A DNA stretch of 64,000 bases, taken from positions 44,178,035 to 44,242,034 of the forward strand of contig NC_134831.1 of assembly GCF_004210375.1 (NCBI RefSeq), read 5' to 3'. Below, in pieces: positions 1,030 to 53,900 of the stretch (the stretch's first letter is position 1; every line of letters begins with the position of its first letter). Both the position numbers and the translations under genes were made by a program. The notes below the pieces were generated by a model. The model was not told where the DNA came from. It made no database searches and saw only the letters and a program-made list of their open reading frames with translations. The DNA is from Tachypleus tridentatus (lineage: Eukaryota > Arthropoda > Merostomata > Xiphosura > Limulidae).

Positions 1030-1286
1030 CTTATAAAGCTACTCGAGGACTATCTGCACTAGCCGTCCCTAATTTAGCAGTGTAAGACTAGAAGGAAGGC
1101 AGCTAGTCATCACCACCCATCGCCAACTCATGGGCTACTCTTTCACCAACGAATAGTGGGATTGACCGCTCATTATAACGCCCCCACGGCTGAAAAGGCG
1201 AGCATGTTTAGTTCGACCGAAATCCGAACCCGCGACCCTCAGATTTCGAGTCGAACGCCTTAACACACTCGGCCATGCCGGGCCCC
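1030..1286 (-). repeat. tRNA-Thr-like SINE, family 1
   Basis: The minus strand has a tRNA-like head (GGCCCGGCATGGCC, TTAAGGCGTTCGACTCG, GGGTTCG box) followed by a conserved body with CCCACTATTCGTTGG and CTAGTCTTACACTGC. The anticodon loop CTCGTAA in better copies reads CGT (Thr). At least seven other copies of the body occur in the window, in both orientations. Confidence 0.85.
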
Positions 1287-1504
1287 GTGAACCCTACTTT
1301 TCTATAGTAAAGAGTAGCCCAAGAGTTGTCAGTGGATGATATTGACTGATTATTATGAACCAGAAAGGGAAGCCATATTTTGACATTGCATACCGACAAA
1401 ATGTGAGCCATATGAAGTTGTTAGATACGAGACGTGATATTACAAAAAAGTTGAAGTTTTGTTTTTAGTGGGTGATTGTATAAGGTTCGCTTCTATAGAA
1501 ATTG

Positions 1505-1607
1505 AGCACAAACATTAAACAATGGTCCATCAGTGCTCTGCCTACCACGGTTTGTAGCATTTTAAGTTCCCTGACATACCGTTGTGCCACTGGGAGGACG
1601 GTTATAT
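1505..1607 (-). repeat. SINE family 2 copy
   Basis: The segment matches the copies at 27.7 and 27.9 kb through the shared string pattern GCACAAA..ACAATGG..CTGTGCTCTGCC..CATACTGTTGTGCCACT. It is in the same (minus) orientation and is degraded in the tRNA-like part. Confidence 0.5.
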
Positions 1608-1741
1608 TGGATAAACCTGTGTCTTGCAGTTTTCTCAAAAGTAACTTTAAATACGATACGATGTGTTCAAAAGTATATTTTATATCCCATAAATATCCTC
1701 GGTTAGGAAAAGAGTACTTCCGCTAATTAAGAAGGAAACAC

Positions 1742-2535
1742 AATCTGGTTATGAAGGCAAACTTCGTAGGTAAATATTAATCTGAAAAGTTGAAAACAAA
1801 TAAAAATGTTCAAAGAAAAAGGAACAGAACGTGATAGGAGTTCTGGACAAATAGCAGATTACTCATTGAGCTAGGAAGACATTTTGAACACTCAGCGAGA
1901 TATGAAAGCAACTACGCCAGCAGTCTCAAATCCGTACTTTCATGTCCAAAAGATTACTCCTGGCGTTTGAAAAACAGGATTTTGACTTCTGCAGATTCAT
2001 ACGACTAAACATTAATCGTGAAAAGAATCCACCATTTATTCGACTGCTCAATCGTTTCAACAACTAATTCTCTCTATATATAGTCACGGTCCAGCCAATC
2101 ACATTTCTTTATATTTTAATAGCTCTACAACAGTAAATCCTTAAACCTGGAATTCGCTACCTTACCACAGCCTTAGAGTCTGCGTTCATTAATGTACCAC
2201 CCCGCCAACACCCAAGCTATAACCGCCTTTAAGCGAAGTCAGCCCTCGGCTTCTCCTTTTTTATCGTGAAATAGTTTATCCAGGACATCACAGTGAGCAT
2301 CATACCCACTTAGTCACAGTTTTGCGTATCAACATTCAATGTGCACTTGCTTCTAAGAAACATGAGACTGAAAATATTACTAACATAGTTAAACCAGTAT
2401 TTGTTTAAGTGAAACCCGTTTATATGCAAACCATAGATTTAGAATAAAAAGATATTCAATAATAAGAAAAGACAGAATAAATAATAGGTACCAAAACAGG
2501 GTAATTCTATTGTTATATAAATCTGATCCCATTTA
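1742..2535. other. no gene seen
   Basis: AT-rich sequence with stops in all frames. I see no exon, RNA gene or recognised repeat, although the right part may be decayed 5' sequence of the LINE that follows. Confidence 0.5.
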
Positions 2536-2539
2536 AATA

Positions 2540-4660
2540 AAGGAAGTGCAAGTTACTTCATTAAACCATAAATTTGATAACTAAAAATGCATTTATTATA
2601 ATGGGAGCAGGTATATATTGTTTACCAAATAGAAAAGTAGATATCAATCTATTATGTCATGTAAATAATCATAATGTAAATACCATTATAACAGGAGTTT
2701 TAAATAGTTAAAACAACTTCTAACTGAACTCAGTTAATTCAAATGGAAGAATGCTATATAAGCACTTACTAGATACAAATACAGTGTTATTAAACGATGC
2801 CACTTCTCACATATTTCATATGCACATTGTAAATTGATATACTGAATTTGTAAGTTTTCAAATAAGAAATTATATAGACAGTGATCATCTTCCTGTCTGG
2901 AATACCTTCAGTCTCATCCTGAATACAATTAAACCAACATGAACAGAAAAATTCAAAGATAAAAGAAGCAAACTGGGTCAAATAAACTAGTAAAAACAGC
3001 ACAGACATAGAAACCATATGCACAAATAATAAATGTGATTAAAGAACAACGGAAACTTTGTAGACAACACATATAAAGTAGGGACCTTGTATTTAAAACT
3101 CAAATATATACTCTACGAAATACAATAAGAAATGAAGTTAAAGAACTCTTAACAAGACTGTTGAGATCACTTCTGCTCCAAACTTAATGACAAAACAGAT
3201 CCTCAACAGTTCTGGACAAACGTAAAATGATTGACAAACACGAAAAACCCAAAAATCAACTACCTACCTTTTGAAATACAAAATAATACAGCACAATCAA
3301 ACTTTGAAAAACACATTTAAGACACATTACGAGCCAAATATGAATACACACTTCTACAGTACATTAATAACCATATCAGAAAAAACAAAACTTTGTACAC
3401 ACTCAAATTCCGTAACGACACACTAAATATATGAAGGAACAACGATGCCAATGAAAACCTGATCGCATGTCAACTGACAGAAACAACTACTGAAATAAAT
3501 CATAAAAGCAATAAATTATACCAAAACCAAAGCACCAGGAGAAAATGGCACACAGATCGTCCTCCTCAAAAAAGGCACTCGTAAAGTGTATGAACATTAA
3601 CTGTGCTATTTAACTTATCTCTAAACTCTAGATGTGTCCCGGTTTCTTGGAAGCAAGCAATTGTGCGACCGTTTCATGAAGAAGGAAAGCCAGCACATAA
3701 ACCAAACAAATAACAGTTTCGAATATTTAGACAAATAGCTGACACCTGGTCAGATTAACAGAAACCATTACTGACAAATTCCAATAGAAATGAATGCACT
3801 GTCGATATTTTCTCGGTGTTGAGAAAGCATTCGACACTGTCTGGCACTGTGGTCTTAGGTTTCGCTTCACTGAGATAGGCCTACCACCTAGAATTATTCG
3901 CTGGTTATCCAACTTTTTGGAAAACAGTAAACGTAAAATACATGTTAGAGGAACATACTCTGTTCTTTACTCTAGAGGTATGCGCCTCCCAAGGAGGGGT
4001 TGTTAGCCTTGAGCTATTCATCATGCGTGTACGAAAAGCCCAAATTTAGTACTTTCATTACAATTCGTGGACAATGTTGCTGTCTGAAAAAATGCCCTCA
4101 CCTCATCTATAGCAGCCAAAATTCTAGAGCCACTAAAACTACAGTAGAATACTGTCAAAAATATCGAATAAATACCTACAAAAAAATCAAACAGTAGTAT
4201 TTTGAAAACAAACAAGACAAAAAAACTAACCCACCAAAATATTATATGTATGAAACACTTCTCCAGACCACAACTTCTTTAAAATGTTTAGACCTAGCCT
4301 ACAGTTCTAAATTAACGTGGATTAACCATATCGACAATATACTTAAGTTTGGAAATGACTAAGTTATGCAAGAAGTTTAACAGGCAAAACTATGGAACCA
4401 CACTTGATGATATTATCAAAACAAAGAAACGCCCAGTCATAGAACAGGCATGTCTGGCTGGATAAACATACCACCGAAAGAGATAAATAAATTACAAACA
4501 ATAAAGAATTGATTACTTAACAGCATCCTACAAAGTACGACGTAGCACGTCGTCCAAATTCATGCACAATTACACAAACATTTCACTATCGTCAAGAGAT
4601 TCTTGCATAATTCTCCAAATTACTTTGTGAAAAATGTGCATAAAAACTACCTACTGTTAA
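2540..4660 (+). mobile_element. degraded Jockey-like LINE, partial copy 1 (endonuclease and reverse transcriptase remains)
   Basis: Pieces of a non-LTR retrotransposon ORF2 appear in order on the plus strand, interrupted by stops and frameshifts. At 2736-2830 the peptide NSNGRMLYKHLLDTNTVLLN and at 2878-2900 DSDHLPVW fit an APE-type endonuclease (the SDHxP motif is its catalytic histidine loop). At 3620-3715 VSWKQAIVRPFHEEGKP fits the RT N-terminus. At 3810-4000 VEKAFDTVWHCGLRF and IGLPPRIIRWLSNFL are the classic RT block with the aspartate of the palm. At 4280-4350 a CLGLAYSSKLTWINHID remnant fits the end of RT. The element is dead. The clade call rests on motif style from memory. Confidence 0.75.
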
Positions 4661-28040: not shown

Positions 28041-28513
28041 AGAAAGAATAATTTATGATCTTATGCCATATATACATGAATGTTACCTCTTGTAAAAAGC
28101 AATTAAATTTTATTATAGCACGATTTTCATTCTTCAACATTTCAAAATTGAAATTTCACAATTTCTTCAAAGATGTTCATAGATAAGTGACTTGGAGAAA
28201 ACATTTCAAATGCATGAGATTTTCACTGATGGGCATGTAAGTGTGAGTAATGCTTGAAATTTGATACGTATGAACTTGCAACTATTATCATAGATTTACA
28301 AAAGACCCAGAAATTCAAATGTTTAGAAGAAAGAAGTCTCACAATCAGAAAAACTCCAGAGTTTTAGTTATTTTAAAAATCTACTTTTTTGTTGTTGCTG
28401 TTAATCCTCTACATTATTTTTTAACTTTTTACAAGTATTTTGATGTAAACAATTTTTTTCAAGCTTTGCAATCACTTAGTTGTTTTCCTATTCTGAACAG
28501 TTAGCACGTCCCA

Positions 28514-28920
28514 TTGTACAGGGAAGTTCTAATCATGGGAGAGATTAACTTATCTGTCATATTGTACGGGAAGTTCTTATTGAGGGAAAGTGAGTTATCT
28601 TGTCACATTGTACAGGGAAGTTCTTACTGAGGGAAAGTAACTTATCTGCCATATTGTACAATGAAGTTCTGCTTATGGGAGAGAGTAACTTATCTATCAT
28701 ATTGTACAGGGAAATTTTGGTTGTGGGAGAAATTAACTTATTTATCATACTATACAGGAAATTTTTGGTAGTGGGAGGGAAAGTTATCAATCATATTACA
28801 GAAATAAATTCTGGTTAGGGGAAGAGTAATTTTTCATATTGCATAGGAAAGTTATGGAACTAGGAGGGTAAACATCTGTAAGCTGTACAGGTAGGTTTTA
28901 TTTATGAGAAAGCAAGCCTT
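28514..28920. repeat. 46-48 bp minisatellite, about eight to nine units
   Basis: Units begin TTGTACAGGGAAGTTCT or a close variant at 28514, 28562, 28608, 28654, 28702, about 28750, 28794, 28838 and 28884. The interior carries GGGAGAGATTAACTTATCTG-like sequence. The left units are most alike and the right units are decayed. Several periods equal 48, so frames stay open on both strands (28557-28790 minus, 28600-28818 plus) with a 16-residue period; these frames are by-products of the repeat. Confidence 0.9.
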
Positions 28921-41900: not shown

Positions 41901-44900
41901 TTAATTAAAAAATCTGATATTTTGTGTAGGGAAGCTTTGTAATGTTAACCAATAAGCTACAACATTTCATGAAAATATGCCACTATATGGTTATGAGGTC
42001 AGTCCTTGGGACCAAGCCTATGAGAGAGTTAAGATCAACAGTCATATTCAAAAGACTTTCAAACTTGGCATTAAGCTTTAAGATCCCAAGTCATACTCAA
42101 CATCATAACCAAAATGATATTAGGCAGTAATATCACAAAAGCCATGTCCAACAACATGATTAACTCTGATATTACCTTTATAGTCCCAAAAGTCATGCCC
42201 AATATCATAACCAAATATGACATTAGCTTTAAGATCACAAAAGTCATGTCCATCTTCTTGAACTTCAAAGTAAGCTTTGAACCACGATAAAAAAAATTAT
42301 GATCAACAACTTCAAACTTGACTTTAAGTTTCAACTTCAAAAATATAAAATGAAACTGATAGTTAGTCCTTAACTGTAATACTTTTTCCTAATTAGTAAA
42401 GACCTAAATTAATTGTAATGATGAATGACTAACTTCTAATATTAAACTTGTTCAATTCATAAGTTTTAATAAGAAAAATTATAAACAATATTTTTGACTT
42501 TACTGAAGTTAGTAAAAACAGACTTATTCACCAAAAAAGGTTATATTTCAAAAACAATATTGTAATAGATTTGTTTTACTAAAAAAAAACATACAAATTC
42601 ATCTTATAGCAAGCCAATGGAAGTAAGGCTGCACCTAGTGCAATGTTTCTGTGGGAGGTGTCACTGAATTTTAGGTTTTCAATGATTACAAGTAATTAGT
42701 AACAAGAAAATGAAAAACATAATACTGACAAGATTCTAATAATCCAGATTACATGGAGTTTAACTTCTTTAATTAATATTTTAAATTGGTTCAGAATATT
42801 ACACAAAGCTATATAACAGTCACCTGCAATATTTGTCCCTGGTTCTAAACCAATAGACTAGAGGGTAAAGTAGCTAAGATGTAGTGTCCACTGCCAATTC
42901 TTGGACTACTATAATTGAATAGTTGGATTTGACCTTCTCTCCTACAAAGTTCAGAACATGATCTTGAAGCAAGGATACACAAACCATGAGTAGAAGTTTA
43001 TGGTTCATCACGTCAATAAGCAAGCCACACCCAGTCCAACACAGAGATAATAAGTTCCCAAATATGATAAAAACCTGCAATCCTCAAGTTTACTGCAGGT
43101 TTCTGCCAACTTTCCATTCTTATTATTAACATTACTACTATTACAGGTATCTAGATATTTTTGTTTGTTTTAACTATGTATGATTTAAGACAAAGAAATC
43201 AATTTTTTTCTCTTATCAGTTGCAAATTTTCACTGAGACATTAAAATTTCCAGAAATTTTCTTTATAAAGGTATGATCACATCTTTCATAACTACATTTT
43301 TGTTTCTTTTGATAACTTTTCAATATGAATCAGGACTTAAAGTAATTTTGGTTTCTGAGATTAACAGAGATTCATTTAACTTTGGCAAAGTTCTGTTTGA
43401 CCAATAAAAATTAGCAGTCTCATATGTCAAGTTTAAAGGATAAAAATTCAATTTTGCATTCATTGAATTATTCCATAATATATACTTTTCCATGCGTTTG
43501 TTTTTTTTAAGTATTCTGTTACAGAATATCAAGCACATGACAAATATGAAAGATAAAAATAGCAAGTGCTTCAAATAATGCCTAACAGGCATGCCAACTG
43601 CAAACAAAAGGTCACACAAAGAGTAATTATCAATTACTCTAAACACGTTACATAATAAAGAAAAACGGAGATTTAAGCCGAGTAACATACCTGCTCAGAG
43701 ATACACCTCCAACCATAATCATCTGTTCGATCACATTCATATGTTTCACCCAGAAGTGGATTAAAGGGTTTGCCAGATCTGTTGCTTGTAGTGGCATACG
43801 ATGAAATGGTATAGGCAGCAACATAAGCCATTTGTTCACAAGTATCTTCCATTTTAGCAGCTTTATCTAACAGCTCAGAATACTCGTATTCTTCTGTGAG
43901 TCTTTGTAAGGTGGAAAGTGGTTCATTGAAATTAACCTAAGCATTAAAAATTGTCATAAAAATAAATGTGTGTTATTTAATACAAAATATGTTTCCATTA
44001 TTTAACAACACACAGTTATACATAAAACACATAAATAATAATAAATTTCAAACCATAATTTTGAACAAAATGTATTTGAATAAATCAGCCACCTCGATCT
44101 TATCATCTGACCAACTGTTAACTCCATTACATAAAGGCCAACCCTTTATATTTTTGCTTAGAACTCTGAAGGTTTCTTACAGCTTTGATACTTTTTCATT
44201 ATAACTATCCATATATTTTCATATCAGTGCAGTAAATTACTGAAGGAAGTAAATGAAAATATTAAGATATCCATTGATAATGCCGGCCTGCAATGGTATT
44301 AAGGTCAGGAAATGTTTACATGTTCTACAACAATTTGTATATTTCTCCATTACGTACAAATGTTACACAAAACATTACATGTACTTTTATATAAGTGAAC
44401 CATTTTAACTGAAATCAGGTCACATTTTGGTTTACTAAAACTCTTACAAACACTAGCTATAGATTTCTCCAGACAAATCATGATGAGAGAGTCCTATTAA
44501 TCATTACAGAACCCATGAGAAACACACTGCTAATATACATACAGTTATCTGGCTGCATGATGTGCATTTGGTAGCACTATGTAACAAAGGTTTTACTTTT
44601 TCTTGTTCCTGGGCAGAAAGTGTTATTTCCCGATTGCTTATGCCTAAAGTAAATGGAAAAGACCTATTTTTCTCTTCAAACTTTGCTTTTGTGACCTGGG
44701 TAATGAAATTTTCAAATTTACCCATTTTCCAGAACATTCCAGGTAGGTTCAGTGCTCAGTTGCTGATACAGAATTTTCTCGAACTTACAAGAATTTTCAA
44801 GAACTTTCTAGAATGTTGTAGAACTTGTGAGAATTTTCAAGAACCTTTTAGAATTTTCTAGAGCTTTCCATAGTAATATGCATACAGGGGCTCACCACTC

Positions 44901-47900
44901 ACCACTTCAGTTTAGTTCTAGCTGCCTAAGTGAACACATAGACCTATCTGATTTTATCAGAGATAGCATCAAGAAGCTGCAAGCATTCTACAGACGCATT
45001 CTGCTATGTATGTGACCAATTTATTAAGACAAGAGCGAAAAAGTACTCTGTGACAGCATTTCCTAAAATGTATGAAGCCCACAAGACATATTTCGGCATG
45101 CCTGTCAGAGATCAAGACAAACCTTGGGCACCTCATTTTACCTGCGAGCACTGCAAAAAGACTCTAAGGTAAAACGGACAATGTTTGCTTGCTTGAATGG
45201 TAAGATTTTATATTATACAAATTTTAGACCTTTAAAAATTTAAAATCTTTTTTTAATTTACAATAGTATAGAAAAAATATCACAAAATATTTTGCATGAA
45301 CCTCTTACACATTAGTTGTGGATGAAATAAATTTATTCCTCATAATAAGAATTTTATTTCGCTCTTTTGCAGGATGGTACAGAGAGGAAAAGAGAGCTAT
45401 GAAATTCACTATTCCAAGAATTTGGCATGTACCCACAGACCACTGCAGCTGGTGAGAGAAACCAATACTACCCCAACCAAAGAGACCTCAATCACTTGAT
45501 CAGAGATCTTGGTCTAACAAAGTCAAATGCTGAGACTATATTTGGGGGCTGATACATGAAAGTGATTTACATTACAGTTACAAATCTCAAAAAACTACTC
45601 ACTTCTAAACATTTTTGTTCATTTTTGTATAACTTTAGTGTAAATACAAGTAAATCTTAATTCAAATGTTGTTTTATTCAGACCTTATGTAAATGAAAAT
45701 GTGCAAATTTGCCTGTTTTTACATAGAAAGTAAGTTAATTTCTAAATTTTATTATACAGATCACAAAAGCAAAGTTTCAAGGGAATAATGGCCATTTTCT
45801 GTACTTTTACAATGTAAGCAATTAAGAGATAACACATACTATCCAGGAAGAAAATTTGTGTTACATAGCGTAGTATTTATTTATGTGTGCACTTTGAAAT
45901 TATTTTTACTTTTCAAGATTACTTATTTGTCACTACTGTAACAAGAGGTTGTGTAAATGACTAAAACATAATCTGTTACATTTGTGGTAAATTTTTGCAA
46001 GGATTTCTTCAAAAAAATGTATTACATGGATTTTGGAATAAAATTTGAAGACCAAGAAAAATCATGGGCTCTGCACAATGTTTGTGTCAAAGAAATGAGA
46101 GGATGGATTTAAAGGTAAGAAAAAATCTCTGCCTTCTGGAATTCCAGTAGTCTGATGTGAGCCTAGAAACCACAGATATGACTTACATTTTTACTCATGT
46201 GACTTGCAAGGAAATGACAATTAAAATATAAAAGGAAATCTATTATCCAAATCTTCAATCTGCTATAAGACCTGATCTATCTCTACCAATTCCAGTAGAG
46301 ACTCTTGTTACAGTTTCATTTGGTATCAGTACTAACAATGAGAGGGATTCTTTCCAACCTGAAATGTCTGATGAATAACTTTTCACACAAGGTGAACTTA
46401 GTGACTTGGTGAGAAGTGTGGATCTTCTAAAGCACTCTTCAGAGATTTGGGGCTGCTGACTTCAGGCTATGAACTTTCTCCATGGGCATCATTTTAATAA
46501 TACAGAAATTGTGAGAAAGTTTATAACAGACTTCTCACAAGAAGGTTCACTGTTTTATTACAACAATACCACTGAATTAATACCAATGCAGTGAATGATG
46601 ATTATTTGTTGATTCCTCCAAAAAGAGTTTAAAAGGTGTTCCGCTTCAAAATAGTGACATATTTGCATCAGTTCCTATTCCTCATTTGGTTCATTTGAAG
46701 GAAACATACAAAAATATCCAACTTCTTCTTAATAAGATTAAATATAAAGAACATGGTTTGATAATTTGTAGAGGCTTATAAGTCCTCTGTATGTCATTGG
46801 GTCAACAATCTCATTATACAGTTATACAAAGATTCCATGTTTCTTGCATGAATGGGAAAGAAGAGCATGAAATCATTACTGGATAAAGAAACAGCAGGCA
46901 TGCAGAGTGAGCCTGCTACCAGAATCTAAAAACATTGAACATTAAAGTTTGGTTGACATACAGAAAATTCTATTACCTCCACTTCACATACAACTACATG
47001 CAACACACTTTATAAAGGCCTTTGACAAAAATGGGAAATGTTTCAAGTATCTATGTGGGCAATTCCCAGCTCTTTCAGAGGCAAAAAACTTAAAGAAGGG
47101 ATTTTTTGTTTAGCCACAGATTAGAAAATTGACTTGTGATGAACAATTTGAAAGGATAAAAAGGAAAGTTGAAAAAACAAATTAGAGATTGCCTTTAACA
47201 CGTTGACTGCCAAGTATTTCAGCTGCTGAGGCAGCTCCTATGCCGGGTTTTTTTCAGCAAAATTGAGTAATTTTTAAAACGAAGAAAATAAGCAACAAAT
47301 ACTATTTTTTCTCTAAGCCAAACTTATAGTAGTACACAAAATGAAGAAATATGTACTGGACACCATAATTTCCTGAGAAGGGGTTTATAACCGGAACAGC
47401 AAAGGATTCAACATTCCAATCATTGTCATTAGGGCACTTTTTCTTGGAACTGTTCTTACCACGACTTCCAATATTACGTTTACTCCCTGGTGTTATGAAA
47501 TTTAATTTTTGAATTAAAAAACAAAAACAAAACATAAATAGCATTAAAATCAATTTTTACATCTAGTTTGCAATGATAAGAGAAAAAATACAGTAATATA
47601 AGGTGTAAAGGACTTTCTGTAGCTAAATTGTAATTATCATAACTCTCCAGGAAGACTAACAGGTAAGTTCAAATACCACTGTTAGACACCTGAAGTTGGC
47701 CTTTAAAATCCAGGTTCAGAGTAATTTGGGTTAATGGCTATTTTCAGAAAGTAATAAAAGTTTTAAAAGATCTGTAGCAAAATTTTAATTATAACTTGCC
47801 AGGATGACTAATGAGTAGTTCAAACAGCAGCATTAGTCACCTGAAGTTGACCTTTCCAGTCCTGGTTTTGAGTATTTTGACATTACAGCCATTTTCTAAT

Positions 47901-50900
47901 TTCAAATTGAACTAGATGGACTGTAATTCTTAAAAGGGAATCACATTAAAAAAGATCTAATGTATAAATTAAAAAACTTAAAAGGCATTAAAAAATTAAT
48001 GGCCTTTAAAAAACTAAAAACATTTCTAGGGTGGACAGTGTCACCATTGTGAATAACACTGTCTAACATTATGGATATTCCTTGGGACAGAACATGCTTA
48101 AAATGATGCCATCGTTGAAAGTTATAATGATGGCAAGACAGTAAAATGTGGTTTATTGTGACCTACGTGTTACACAGACAACACATTGGTGCATCAGTCC
48201 CAGATAAAAGAAAACGATGAGTTAAAAAACTGTGACCAATGTGTAGTCTAGTTAGAATAAATTCTTCTTTCCAAACCTTATAGAAGCTAGACAGCCAAAG
48301 TTCAATAGACAGTTTTATTTGGAAAAGCTTGTTATCATGTTGCTCACACCAAGTCGACTGCAAAACAGCACAGAGCTGAACCTTGAATGCAGGACCATAG
48401 TCCACGTGTGGAACAGGCACAGCAAAGGTAGTGCCACAGCAGATAGATTTAGCTGCAATGTCGGCAAGCTCATTCCCAAGAATACCAACATGGCCCAGAT
48501 AGAAGTAGATGTTAAAGAGAAATGGGGCAGTCAGTTTTGAATATCGATGAGAATAGGGTTTGAACTAACATGAAGCAATTCCAGTGCCAGTAAAGAACAA
48601 AGCGAGTCAGTATAAATACTGCAATTTGGGTACTGATTAGCTTCTATATAATCCAGGGCAAGTGAAATGGCATACAATTCAACACTGCACACAGAAGCTG
48701 TAGAGGAGATTCTGTGCATAGCCACTGAACTACAACAAACCATGGCAGAGCCCACACAGTCACCTGATTTTGAACCATCTGTATAAATAAGAATAGAAGG
48801 ATGGTTTGAAAGATGTTCAGCAAATAACAGACAGTATTTCCAATTGGGAGTGTCTGCTTTTCTCTGATGACTTAAAGATAGGTCACACTTGAAGACTGTA
48901 AAAAGCCATGGTGAGATGGGCTGACCAGTGGATACAGCAATGTTAAACAACGACAGACCCAATTCATCCAACTGTACCTGGATACGAAGGCCGAAAGGAG
49001 CAATGGCAGATCATCTGTTCTGAAAAAGTATGGCCTTCCGAGGAAAGAAAACACAACCCCAGGTGGGATGCTTTGGTAAGGAACGAAGTTTTGAAGCATA
49101 TAGTACAGACAATTGGAAACGTCAGAGGTGCAAAAAAGTTCATAAGACTCTGTGTATAAGCTATGAACTGGGGAAGTGCAGAAAGCCCCAGTGTAGAGTT
49201 GAAGTCCTTGATGATGAATGGGGTCCTGCTTCTTTAAGGTCAAGGTCCTGGCAGAGCCATAGACCAGTTATCCATAGTCAAGTTTTGATCGAATAAGAGC
49301 ACAATATATCTTTAGCATAGAACATCGATCCACTCACCAAGTGGTAGAAGAGAGGACATGGAGGATGTTCAGTGCTCTTGTACATTTGACCCATAGCTGT
49401 TTGATATGTGTTATAAAGGTCAGCTTATGGTGAAAGATAAGCCTCAAGAACTTTCTCTCAGGGACTACAGGCAGCACAGCTTCACTGATACGGAGTTCAG
49501 GATCAGGGTGAATACTCTGCTGGCAGCAAAAGTGCATGCAAATGGTTTTAGAGAGAGAGAGAAGTTAAAGCCATTTGCTGTGGTCAACTTCAGTAAATGA
49601 TTGAGGGCAGCATGTAGCTACTGCACAATAAACCTCGTGTATGATGGCTTCCATGTCTCATGTCAGTCGTTGACACAGAGCCCATTTGCAACAATAAGAG
49701 GGAGTTGTTAAGTGATGGCATTCATCTTTATACTGTAAAGCGTGACACTCAAAACACAGCCCTGAGGGACTCCAAGTTCCTGTAGAAAAGAATGGGAAAT
49801 GTCAAACCCACATGAACTTGGAATTGCCTGTCCATTAAAACATTTTTAATAAATATGGGCAAATGGCCACATAACCCATGTATATGGAAGTCTTGCAAAA
49901 TGCCATACCTCTATCTTGTATCATAAGCCTTCTCATTGTCAAAGAATATTGATACAAGATATTGTCATTTGAGAAAGGCTTCTCTGATTGATGTTTCAAG
50001 TCGAATCAGATAGTCCATGATGGAGCACTGTCGTTGAAACCCACATTGGGTGCTTGAGAGGAAGTGGTTTAATTTAAAGAACCAAACAAAATGAGCATTA
50101 ACCATCCTCTCCAAGGTCTCACAGAGACTGCTTGTCAAAGCAATTAGACAGTAGTTTGAAGGAATCTTGGGATCCTTCCTAGGCTTAGAGAAAGGCAGGT
50201 CAATAGCCTGATGCCAGGCATCAAGAAAAACATTCTCCAACTCAATCCAGTTAAAAACAATTAGAAGAAGAGTAAAAGAAGCAGGAGATAGATGGTGCAG
50301 CATTTAATACTGTACATCATGAGGTTGGACTGATGTACTGCCAGACCAATGAAGGACAAGTTTGAGTTCCACCAGCATAAAGGGAGATTATAGTCATAAA
50401 GGCAATCAGTTCAAAAGGAAAGAGGTGATCACTCTGCCCAAGTCTTAATGGCTAAGAAGGTGCAGGAAGTAAAAGTGCTAGATACCTTTCACCTAGAGTA
50501 TCGGCAATGCTCCAGGCATCAGCTACTTCCTGGCCATCAGAGAGCAAGATTGAGAGAGGGACAGAATTATATTGCCCACAGACCTTTTGAATCTTGTCCC
50601 ATATGACTCTGAAACTAGTGATAAAAGATATGCTTGTTGTGAACTTAATCCAAGATTCCTTCTGGCTTTCACATCTTACCCACTGAGCACGTGCACAGGC
50701 CTGCTGAAAAGCGATGCAATACAAGAGTGTGGGATACCTACAAAAAGCATGGCAGGCCTGTTTTTGAGTCTTCCGTGCCATGTAGCAGGCAGGATTCTAC
50801 CAAGGAAAAGGATATGGTGGAAAACATGTTGAGGTTTAAAGAATACACTGAACAGCTGACTGTATAATACAGTGAGTTACTACTGCTACACAGTCATCTA

Positions 50901-53900
50901 CTGATGACCTACAGATGATGACAGGATCAAGTTCTGCAAGAGCAGTGAAAGAAGGCTAGTTTGCTTGATCCAGCTTCCACAAGGGTATACAAATCGGGTG
51001 GCATCAATCACAGTCAGTCTCTCTCAAAATTGTAGGAAAATGATCACTGCCTCGTGGATTATTGTTAACCTTCCATGAAAAGTGGGAGAATAGTAAAGGG
51101 GAGCAAGCTGAGAGATCAACAGCAGTAAAAAACTGACTAGGTGCATGAAAATAAGTATAAGAACCACCATTGAAAAGAGAAAGGTTGTGATCAGAGAGCA
51201 TATGCTCTATGAAGCAACCCCTCCTATCAGTATCAGCACTCCCTGAGAGGGGATGATATCCATTAAAGTCCCCCAGGATTAAAAAGGGAGACAGGAACTG
51301 TTCAATGAGAGCATCAAGGTCTGACTGATCATAGGTTCCTCCAAGCGACAGGTAGAGAGAACAAACAGTGATGGTATGACCCAAGGAAATATGGATGGCT
51401 ACAGCTTCCAAGGGTATGTCAAGTGGCAAAGACAGGATGGGCACATATCGATCAACCAACAGTGCCACCTGTCCATTCACTCGTCCATCACACAGCCTGC
51501 CATTTCTGTACAAAGAAAACTGCTGAAAGGTGACTGTATCGGCAGGTTTCAGAAATGTTTCCTATTAGAAAAGACATACAGAATGGTAGGAAGCAATCAG
51601 TGCTTTGATGTCATCCAGATTAGAATGTAAACCTCGACAGTTCCATTGTATCCAAATGGCAATTTTTATTTATGTGTAAGTAAATTGGGTGGAGAACCCT
51701 TCTGTTTACGACATCTTTTTTTCTGCCCTGGGTCAATTGGGCAGGTCTCTGCTGTTGGAAAAGAATTCCAGCAACTAAGGATATGAACAAATGATTGTTT
51801 TACATCTTGGGGTGGGAGAAGAAGATGTACCTGAAGAAATGCCCATACCCAGTACCAAAGGAAGTGTTGACATTGATTAACCAATTTTTTTAAGCATGGA
51901 GGTCAAAAGACTTTTCATTTGGTTTGAGAACAGTTCTTTTGGAGGCACAAAGAGATCTGTTTGCTCTCCCACTTTAGTAGTGTAATGAAGTGCAGCAGCA
52001 TACATCTGAGATGAAGTGGCAGACAGCAACATTTGAACATCAGGGTAAGTAATGCTATGAATCATTTTCAAATACACCTCTTTTTCTTCCAACTATTTAG
52101 GGCAAGAACGAAAGTAGGACAGGTGAGAGCCATTGCAATTGATGCAATGAGGGTCCATTTCACACTCATAGGCATCATGGAGCCCTACGAGGGGACGCAC
52201 TAAAATGCCAAACAAGGACACTGCAGCAACGCCAGGGTTTCCTGAGCACTATACCCAAACACCAGCATCAGACACAATGTCCAAAACACCCATTGAGAGC
52301 TTCCAACACTGGTACTTGGTTGACCATAGCCCAAGTGAACCAATTGACTGACCCAAGGAGGGCCACCCCAAGACCACCCATTTACAGGAATTCAAGGCCA
52401 AAGTGGTGTGTTAGGGTTGGACCCCTCAACCACCAGGATCCTCTCCTCTGAGAGACCAACATGAAATGTTGCTCAGCATGAAATAAACATCGATGTAAGG
52501 AGGAGGAGGATAAATAACACATATAGAGGAAGGAGTGCAAGGTAATAAGGAAAGTATTGTATTATAGGAAATTGGGGAAAATGATAGATTCGACACTGGA
52601 AGGCGTGGGGTAACTCAGAAGAGTAAAAAGGCTGTTAAAAATCCTCATTTTCACAAACAGTTAGTATGACCTTCAAAGTTGTCATATTAACTTCTATATT
52701 CATGATAAAATGATGAAATTTTAAACAATGTTGGGAGAAAGATATTAATAACTAAAAGATATTTGCACAGAAAACTAAAATTGAAAACAGTAATAAAATT
52801 TAGAAATAATCTTTCCACTTCATGTGATGTTAATACAGAAAAAAACAACATGAATATATCACAATAAAAGCATAGCTTGGTTATAGCACTGCCAAAAGTG
52901 AAGTGACAGTTTGACAGAATCAGATATAGGGTGCTACATACATCAGGAGGTTCTGCTTCACTCCTCTTGGTGGAAGGTTGACACCTGACAACTTGTATGC
53001 GAGGCACAGTGGAACCAGAATAATTGTGGGAGTGTAAGACATGTTGCATGCAAAAAACATTTTGCACATAAAGGGCAAAACTGAATGAGAATAGCTATAT
53101 ATGTGAGTAGAAGTAGTGTACCATGTCAGAAATTCGTGTTAAGAAAATACCATATATTCCTTTACATTCAGCATACATTCCAGCATGTATTGACCAGAAA
53201 CAAGTGTTATTTTATGTAGTATTACAGAATCACCAAATTACCTTCAGTTCTAATGTGGCACACACTCTTTTAAGTTTAATGCATTTGATGTGATTTTAGG
53301 AGCAATTGGCACTGAGCACATGCAAATTTTGCACCATGTTTAATGACTAATACTAACATAACAATCTACAAACATATGTTTGTAGCAAAACATATATTAT
53401 ATTATGTAAATATAAACAAATTATAAAATAAAAATAATATAATGAAAGAAAACTTACAGGCATTGGAATCTTAGTAAGCTCTTTTCCAATACAATTTTTC
53501 ATAATGGACCATAAGCTAAGACTATAATTTGGTCTCTCAGGAACACTGATTCTACGCTTATGTTTCCCTTCTTTTTCTGTTTCTTCATTTTGCTCAAAAG
53601 AGCCATTTTCAGATTTTTCATTTGTCCAAGAGAACTGGTTAGATTCATTAAACTCTTCCTGAAAAAAACACAAAAAAACATGTTGGTTACTTAGTGTTAT
53701 TGATAGAACACTAAATAAGATAACTGAACTGTTGAGTTAGAAATTACAAACAGTAAACCAAATCTATAACCTTAATGTTCCTAATAAACTGTCAGTGATT
53801 CACTTTCATACTCTAACATTCTTAAATGCTTACTCACTAACAGTTTATTTACCTAGACGTCACTTTAACTTAATAATTCAAATAAATCAACATTAAATTC

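Follow-up and report, generated by a model that had tools for sequence, protein, structure and literature searches.

The window, that is, the whole 64,000-nucleotide stretch of DNA analyzed here, carries exons of a host OSBP gene on the minus strand. One exon, at 43673–43936, was identified by its match to PF01237 (E 7e-36), and a further exon near 53455–53590 on the same strand was recognized by eye from OSBP motifs. A copy of a DNA transposon, TE1, containing an array of heat-shock-type decamers sits in the intron between these exons; the array had been placed inside an OSBP intron in the sequence-only reading, and the minus-strand exons found on both sides bear this out. The features of the region are as follows.

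43673–43936, minus strand: exon of the host OSBP gene (PF01237)
44572–44574: left copy, TAG, of the putative target-site duplication, in the flanks of the window copy of TE1 (L004)
44575–45870, plus strand: copy of TE1, a CACTA-like TIR DNA transposon (L004), 1,296 bp, internally deleted and with its gene broken
44575–44729, plus strand: left TIR, beginning CACTATGTAACA; inner end approximate
44727–44739, plus strand: separate three-pentamer HSE, TTCcaGAAcaTTC, upstream of the array and also present in the TE1 consensus
44771–44870, plus strand: array of ten GAAnnTTCnn decamers, with 15/20 exact cores in the window copy and 16/20 in the TE1 consensus
44877–44884, plus strand: TATA-box position, TATATATA in the consensus (kept in 25/34 copies) and TATGCATA in this copy
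44907–44912, plus strand: putative initiator TCAGTT (kept in 26/34 copies), with the inferred start A at 44909
44963–45165, plus strand: exon 1 remnant of the element's gene, with ATG in the consensus and ATA here
45373–45549, plus strand: exon 2 remnants of the element's gene, internally deleted, located by tblastn with the exon of the longer copy L057
45727–45870, plus strand: right TIR, ending TGTTACATAGCG; inner end approximate
45871–45873: right copy, TAG, of the putative target-site duplication, in the flanks of L004

Open frames resembling a decayed non-LTR retrotransposon, RNase H-like by eye, were also noted at 48163–50800 on the minus strand, as were tandem arrays at 28508–28777 and 42076–42252 with units of 47/48 bp and 51 bp.

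The ten GAAnnTTCnn decamers previously described as having exact 10-bp spacing were all located, with starts at 44771, 44781 and so on to 44861. The GAA core is exact in 9/10 units, unit 10 reading GAG, and the TTC core in 6/10 (units 1, 3, 4, 7, 9 and 10), such that five units have both cores exact and a sixth combines GAG with TTC, in agreement with the six of ten units credited with both half-sites, one with GAG. The sequence-only reading had also counted about twenty alternating pentamers; twenty in-phase places are indeed present, with the GAA or TTC core exact at 15 of them in a single phase (44771–44870) and a longest uninterrupted run of five, from 44791. An HSE is taken as at least three contiguous in-phase nGAAn/nTTCn pentamers, and such runs occur in the array, three-core sites within 44700–44874 numbering six for the window copy against eight for the TE1 consensus. 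No other dense in-phase HSE array was found in the window. The best in-phase score in 120 simulated 64-kb windows (60 order-1 and 60 order-3 Markov) was 7/20, and chance is therefore excluded as the origin of the 15/20 observed. TRF scores the array at periods of 10, 20 and 40, and by eye the units alternate between GAAT and GAAC. A coding origin of the decamer was rejected, as a 10-bp period is not divisible by three.

The array and adjacent gene fragments are enclosed by an imperfect inverted repeat with arms at 44656–44729 and 45726–45799 that are 77% complementary, and a longer alignment of the inverted repeat scored 152, a value to be compared with 294 random pairs, none of which exceeded 88. 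TE1 copies share sharp ends, CACTATGTAACA ... TGTTACATAGTG, with the terminus CACTATG. CACTA/EnSpm transposons have 5'-CACTR inverted termini and 3-bp target-site duplications, and a 5'-CACTR terminus within an inverted repeat is present in TE1. Of 21 two-ended copies, 10 have the same three bases on both sides, mostly TAA or TTA, where 6.55 such copies were expected on shuffling (P 0.048); with the left end placed one base off, the figure is 1/22. This comparison took in 33 loci, of which 21 with both ends were counted and 12 dropped, the duplicates L021, L022 and L029 having been excluded beforehand; the 21 copies are 1,270–1,946 bp in length. These flanks suggest a 3-bp target duplication by TE1. 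TE1 shares the CACTA/CACTG type of terminus with CACTA elements (EnSpm, CMC supergroup) and may share the target duplication.

TE1 is abundant in its own genome (2.17 Gb). A 501-bp query gave 3,261 first-look candidates, 40 of which were scored and showed 91–100% identity, and a 1,341-bp query gave 7,657, of which 40 were likewise scored. A 35-bp stretch comprising the last unit and the TATA box had 1,051 genome matches when as many as two mismatches were allowed, and the backward control had none. Dispersed copies of the TE1 promoter block number roughly a thousand or more. For alignment, 38 loci were reduced to 34 distinct copies by dropping four duplicates; L020 and L021, which differ by a few array bases, were both retained. 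The 34 are the best-scoring matches to the window copy, and divergence measured on them is accordingly an underestimate. All of them carry the array, with a gap of about one unit in L025, L037 and L040 and with the phase disrupted by 1–2-bp deletions in L014, L018, L023, L028 and L032. Among 20 further copies, chosen from 150 scored by similarity to the exon and not to the array, 19 have 6–16 exact in-phase cores of 20 and the truncated L079 keeps four. Unit number differs among copies by whole decamers, with 5, 6, 9, 10 and 13 units counted by eye.

The consensus of the 34 copies consists of ten decamers, TAGTA, ATATATATA, 22 bp, TCAGTTTAG, a leader and ATGGCATCAAG. GAA cores are exact in 10/10 units and TTC cores in 6/10, giving 16/20. 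The consensus TATATATA lies 25–32 bp before the A of TCAGTT (−32 to −25) and is followed by the ATG and exon 1, an arrangement that was read against the arthropod initiator consensus and the −30 TATA rule. On this order of motifs the TE1 consensus is a complete putative heat-shock-type promoter ahead of the element's own gene. In the window the array ends 39 bp before the predicted initiator A, and the transcription start formerly guessed to lie near 44907 fits TCAGTT at 44907–44912 with the consensus TATATATA at its upstream spacing of 25–32 bp from the A. The window copy itself has three changes in the array, two in the TATA box and ATA for ATG. In L062, L065, L072 and L080 the TATA box has expanded into a TA microsatellite.

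The gene fragments lie just downstream of the array on the plus strand and are unrelated to OSBP. L057, a longer TE1 copy of about 2.5 kb, contains pieces matching residues 9–566 of a related 567-aa protein, whose sequence comes from the open frame of the sister-family copy L100, and the fragments beside the array were accordingly recognized as the remains of the element's own gene. The sister TIR family, represented by L100 (about 1168–3618) and L101, has CACTG ends (CACTGGTTTACAAA) and an open 567-aa frame, and in the printed flanks TTA/TTA was read for L100 and TAA/TAA for L101. The two copies are 97.5% identical over 2,212 bp, which together with many equal-scoring long-frame matches suggests a recent spread of this family. 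Neither L100 nor L101, the two sister-family copies read, carries an HSE array despite an intact frame, indicating that mobility does not require the array. The window has another broken copy from the element's gene family, more diverged and also on the plus strand, at 46001–47110, with pieces matching residues 9–448 of the sister-family protein.

The 567-aa protein matched no Pfam family at E values up to 10 and no PDB sequence. The CACTA/EnSpm superfamily transposase domain is likewise absent from its Pfam matches, and for this reason TE1 is called CACTA-like and not a proven CACTA member. From its place inside a TIR element, the TE1 gene product is probably a transposase, and we take the protein to be a member of a widespread uncharacterized arthropod/cnidarian family. 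No relative was found in viral contigs by protein and pattern scans or in genome contigs by pattern scan, and tblastn against phages and plasmids gave chance-level matches only (4 and 5 records, E ≥1). An eight-pentamer HSE pattern in three viral contigs was set aside, two of these being the same sequence and none appearing animal-like by eye.

A search of the genome with a perfect six-pentamer pattern gave 218 matches, overlaps counted, and none for the backward control. Of these, 115 correspond to a 28-bp core form, again absent from the backward control, and 14/14 examined loci of this form share the same flanks, which in L045 (1292–3028) lead into a piggyBac transposase gene with the HSE units, TATATATA and ATG in that order. 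DDE_Tnp_1_7 (PF13843) was matched by two pieces of L045 (E 5.1e-43 and 3.3e-14) and by L047 (E 3.2e-51). piggyBac elements have typical ends and a TTAA target site. The same series of HSE units, TATATATA and ATG was seen in L043, L044, L047 and L050–L056. This family resembles TE1 only in the array; its spacer words differ from those of TE1, its GAA/TTC units occupy the same place before the TATA box, and its array contains one 1-bp phase slip. Because an unrelated piggyBac family has the same layout, the heat-shock motif itself is argued to be the functional part.

Among the matches listed (50 of 218), 44 loci lie on the contigs C1–C3 and 35 of these were examined with flank queries that excluded the arrays: 20 have TE1 flanks, 14 have piggyBac flanks and one has neither, and the other nine listed loci all show the piggyBac 28-bp form. 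The 35 loci are not independent, nine TE1 loci falling into two local clusters of near-identical copies and arrays (L057 with L085–L089 within 85 kb; L058, L082 and L083 within 75 kb). The single locus with neither flank, L048 (1501–1528), could belong to a promoter of the host or to a third element, or could have arisen by chance.

Divergence from consensus across the 34 aligned TE1 copies is 5.7% in the array and 4.6% in the inverted repeat. By class it is 7.7% for GAA, 4.9% for TTC and 5.9% and 3.9% for the spacers, so that after insertion the cores are not better kept than the spacers (permutation P 0.86 for cores lower). The sequence-only reading had set this comparison of half-sites with spacers against its own proposal, and for copies after insertion the outcome is the neutral one. 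Such decay leaves nothing to mark the window copy as a selected host element, and since its half-sites belong to a class decaying no more slowly than spacers, the window copy is most probably a fossil; HSF may still bind it, but it would make no useful transcript. Decay is lowest (16/600) for the TTC cores with an exact consensus, and in the fossil copies of TE1 it is faster for GAA than for TTC (78/1010 vs 49/1004, P 0.01). The master sequences keep GAA in 10/10 units of TE1 and 8/8 of piggyBac, and TTC in 6/10 and 4/8, giving 18/18 against 10/18 over 18 units from two families (pooled Fisher P 0.003; TE1 alone P 0.087); with end units removed the counts are 14/14 and 9/16 (P 0.007). Since GAA is intact in the masters though decaying faster in fossils, the latter figures coming from TE1 only, these data suggest that GAA half-sites are under selection in mobile lineages and released from it after insertion. 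Any such selection, if it occurred, would have acted on the mobile lineage and not on the window copy.

Several other origins of the array were weighed against a promoter role. It might be a neutral 10-bp minisatellite within the transposon, arising by slippage that amplified an A/T-rich decamer without any role, its resemblance to GAAnnTTCnn being accidental. The change of array length by whole decamers, the spacer-like decay of half-sites after insertion and the 20- and 40-bp superperiods, which show a history of duplication, are all in keeping with such an origin. However, the unrelated piggyBac family has different spacers with GAA/TTC in the same place before its TATA box, the backward six-pentamer pattern yields no matches against 218, GAA is intact in the master sequence despite its faster decay in fossils, and a TATA box and initiator stand directly downstream of the array; we regard the minisatellite explanation as unlikely. 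The earlier choice between a microsatellite and a selected element is partly supported, in that the array appears to be part of a transposon promoter, while the proposal of a selected element does not extend to the window copy. Repeats near the ends of plant En/Spm elements are transposase-binding sites, and the TE1 array, starting about 200 bp from the CACTA-like left end, could similarly be bound by the element's own protein instead of HSF. This seems improbable given that the window copy has no such array at its right end, that the words equal the HSF site and recur in the unrelated piggyBac family, and that two CACTG-end sister copies with an intact frame lack them.

A third possibility is that the host has adopted this copy as an intronic heat-shock enhancer which makes OSBP or a neighboring gene heat-responsive and is kept by selection. 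The window array has 3 changes per 100 against a mean of 5.8% in the other 33 copies and is the third least diverged of 34, but the window copy has the same rank over its entire stretch (4.2% vs 5.4%), so nothing singles out the array, and a host-selected OSBP enhancer was rejected on the identity of these ranks. Moreover, unit 6 takes two of the three array changes, both in its TTC place, which was imperfect before them; the remaining change breaks the GAA of unit 10, and the TATA box is lost, leaving host adoption very improbable. The best match to a host hsp70 promoter falls inside the array and covers 43 bp at 72% (E 7e-4), and capture of such a promoter was also rejected. We therefore consider it likely that the TE1 array is an HSF-driven transposon promoter, dead in the window copy, with HSF binding and heat induction predicted from the motifs.

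The genome encodes HSF (PF00447, E 6e-22). Three of its own hsp70 promoters, from a cluster on C8, have GAA/TTC geometry just upstream of ATATAAATA; a tandem hsp70 cluster of at least 8 copies was noted at C8:132.82–133.79 Mb. As in TE1, hsp70-type promoters place alternating GAA/TTC pentamers next to a TATA box, although the gene of TE1 is not a chaperone, and the three hsp70 promoters read from this genome contain no more than four exact cores in any stretch of six pentamers, compared with 16/20 in the TE1 consensus. Drosophila hsp promoters are reported to have HSEs of 2–11 subunits, gapped HSEs being common (PMC2871787), and gap- and step-type HSEs, from which pentamers are missing, are reported still to function, step-type weakly (PMC4552642). 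The four TE1 units without TTC would fit such gap- and step-type HSEs.

Helitrons are without terminal inverted repeats, whereas TE1 has CAC...GTG inverted ends. Caenorhabditis Helitrons nevertheless present a comparable situation, DNA transposons holding most HSEs in dense clusters, with 61.4% of C. elegans HSEs in Helitrons and more than 100 in eight copies of one Helitron type (Garrigues et al. 2019, PMC6927752). That study saw no clusters of high HSE density in the other bilaterians it scanned and proposes that they are confined to Caenorhabditis (PMC6927752). The carriers here differ in being a TIR CACTA-like element and a piggyBac element, with the array standing alongside a TATA box and a putative initiator before the element's own gene. 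ONSEN/COPIA78 of Arabidopsis is cited as an HSF-activated LTR retrotransposon (in PMC6927752 and PMC12859917); in contrast, the present carriers are animal DNA transposons with a predicted heat response, and the terminal repeats of TE1 are inverted, not direct as in an LTR element with an HSE. Putative HSEs are also described in the heat-mobilized Cryptococcus elements TCN3 and TCN12, where one or two occur in fungal retroelement LTRs compared with the 20-pentamer array of TE1 (PMC12810828). The top results of a literature search covering few subscription papers describe no HSE promoter in a CACTA-like or piggyBac element. HSE-bearing transposons are themselves known, and it is CACTA-like and piggyBac elements as their carriers that look new.

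In a heat-stressed host, HSF trimers would load on the TE1 array and switch on the element's gene, probably a transposase, and TE1 transposition would thereby be tied to heat stress. On the layout shared by the two families, heat stress may wake both TE1 and piggyBac. About as likely as not is the broader proposal that these two families account for the majority of the genome's long perfect HSF sites (34/35 of those examined), which would be spread over a thousand locations and could there bind HSF or recruit neighboring genes. The finding places HSE promoters in two unrelated DNA transposon families of an animal outside Caenorhabditis, and the notion that stress wakes transposons becomes testable as a simple promoter question. 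It also predicts that HSF occupancy in this species would lie largely on mobile elements, which matters for the reading of HSF ChIP data.
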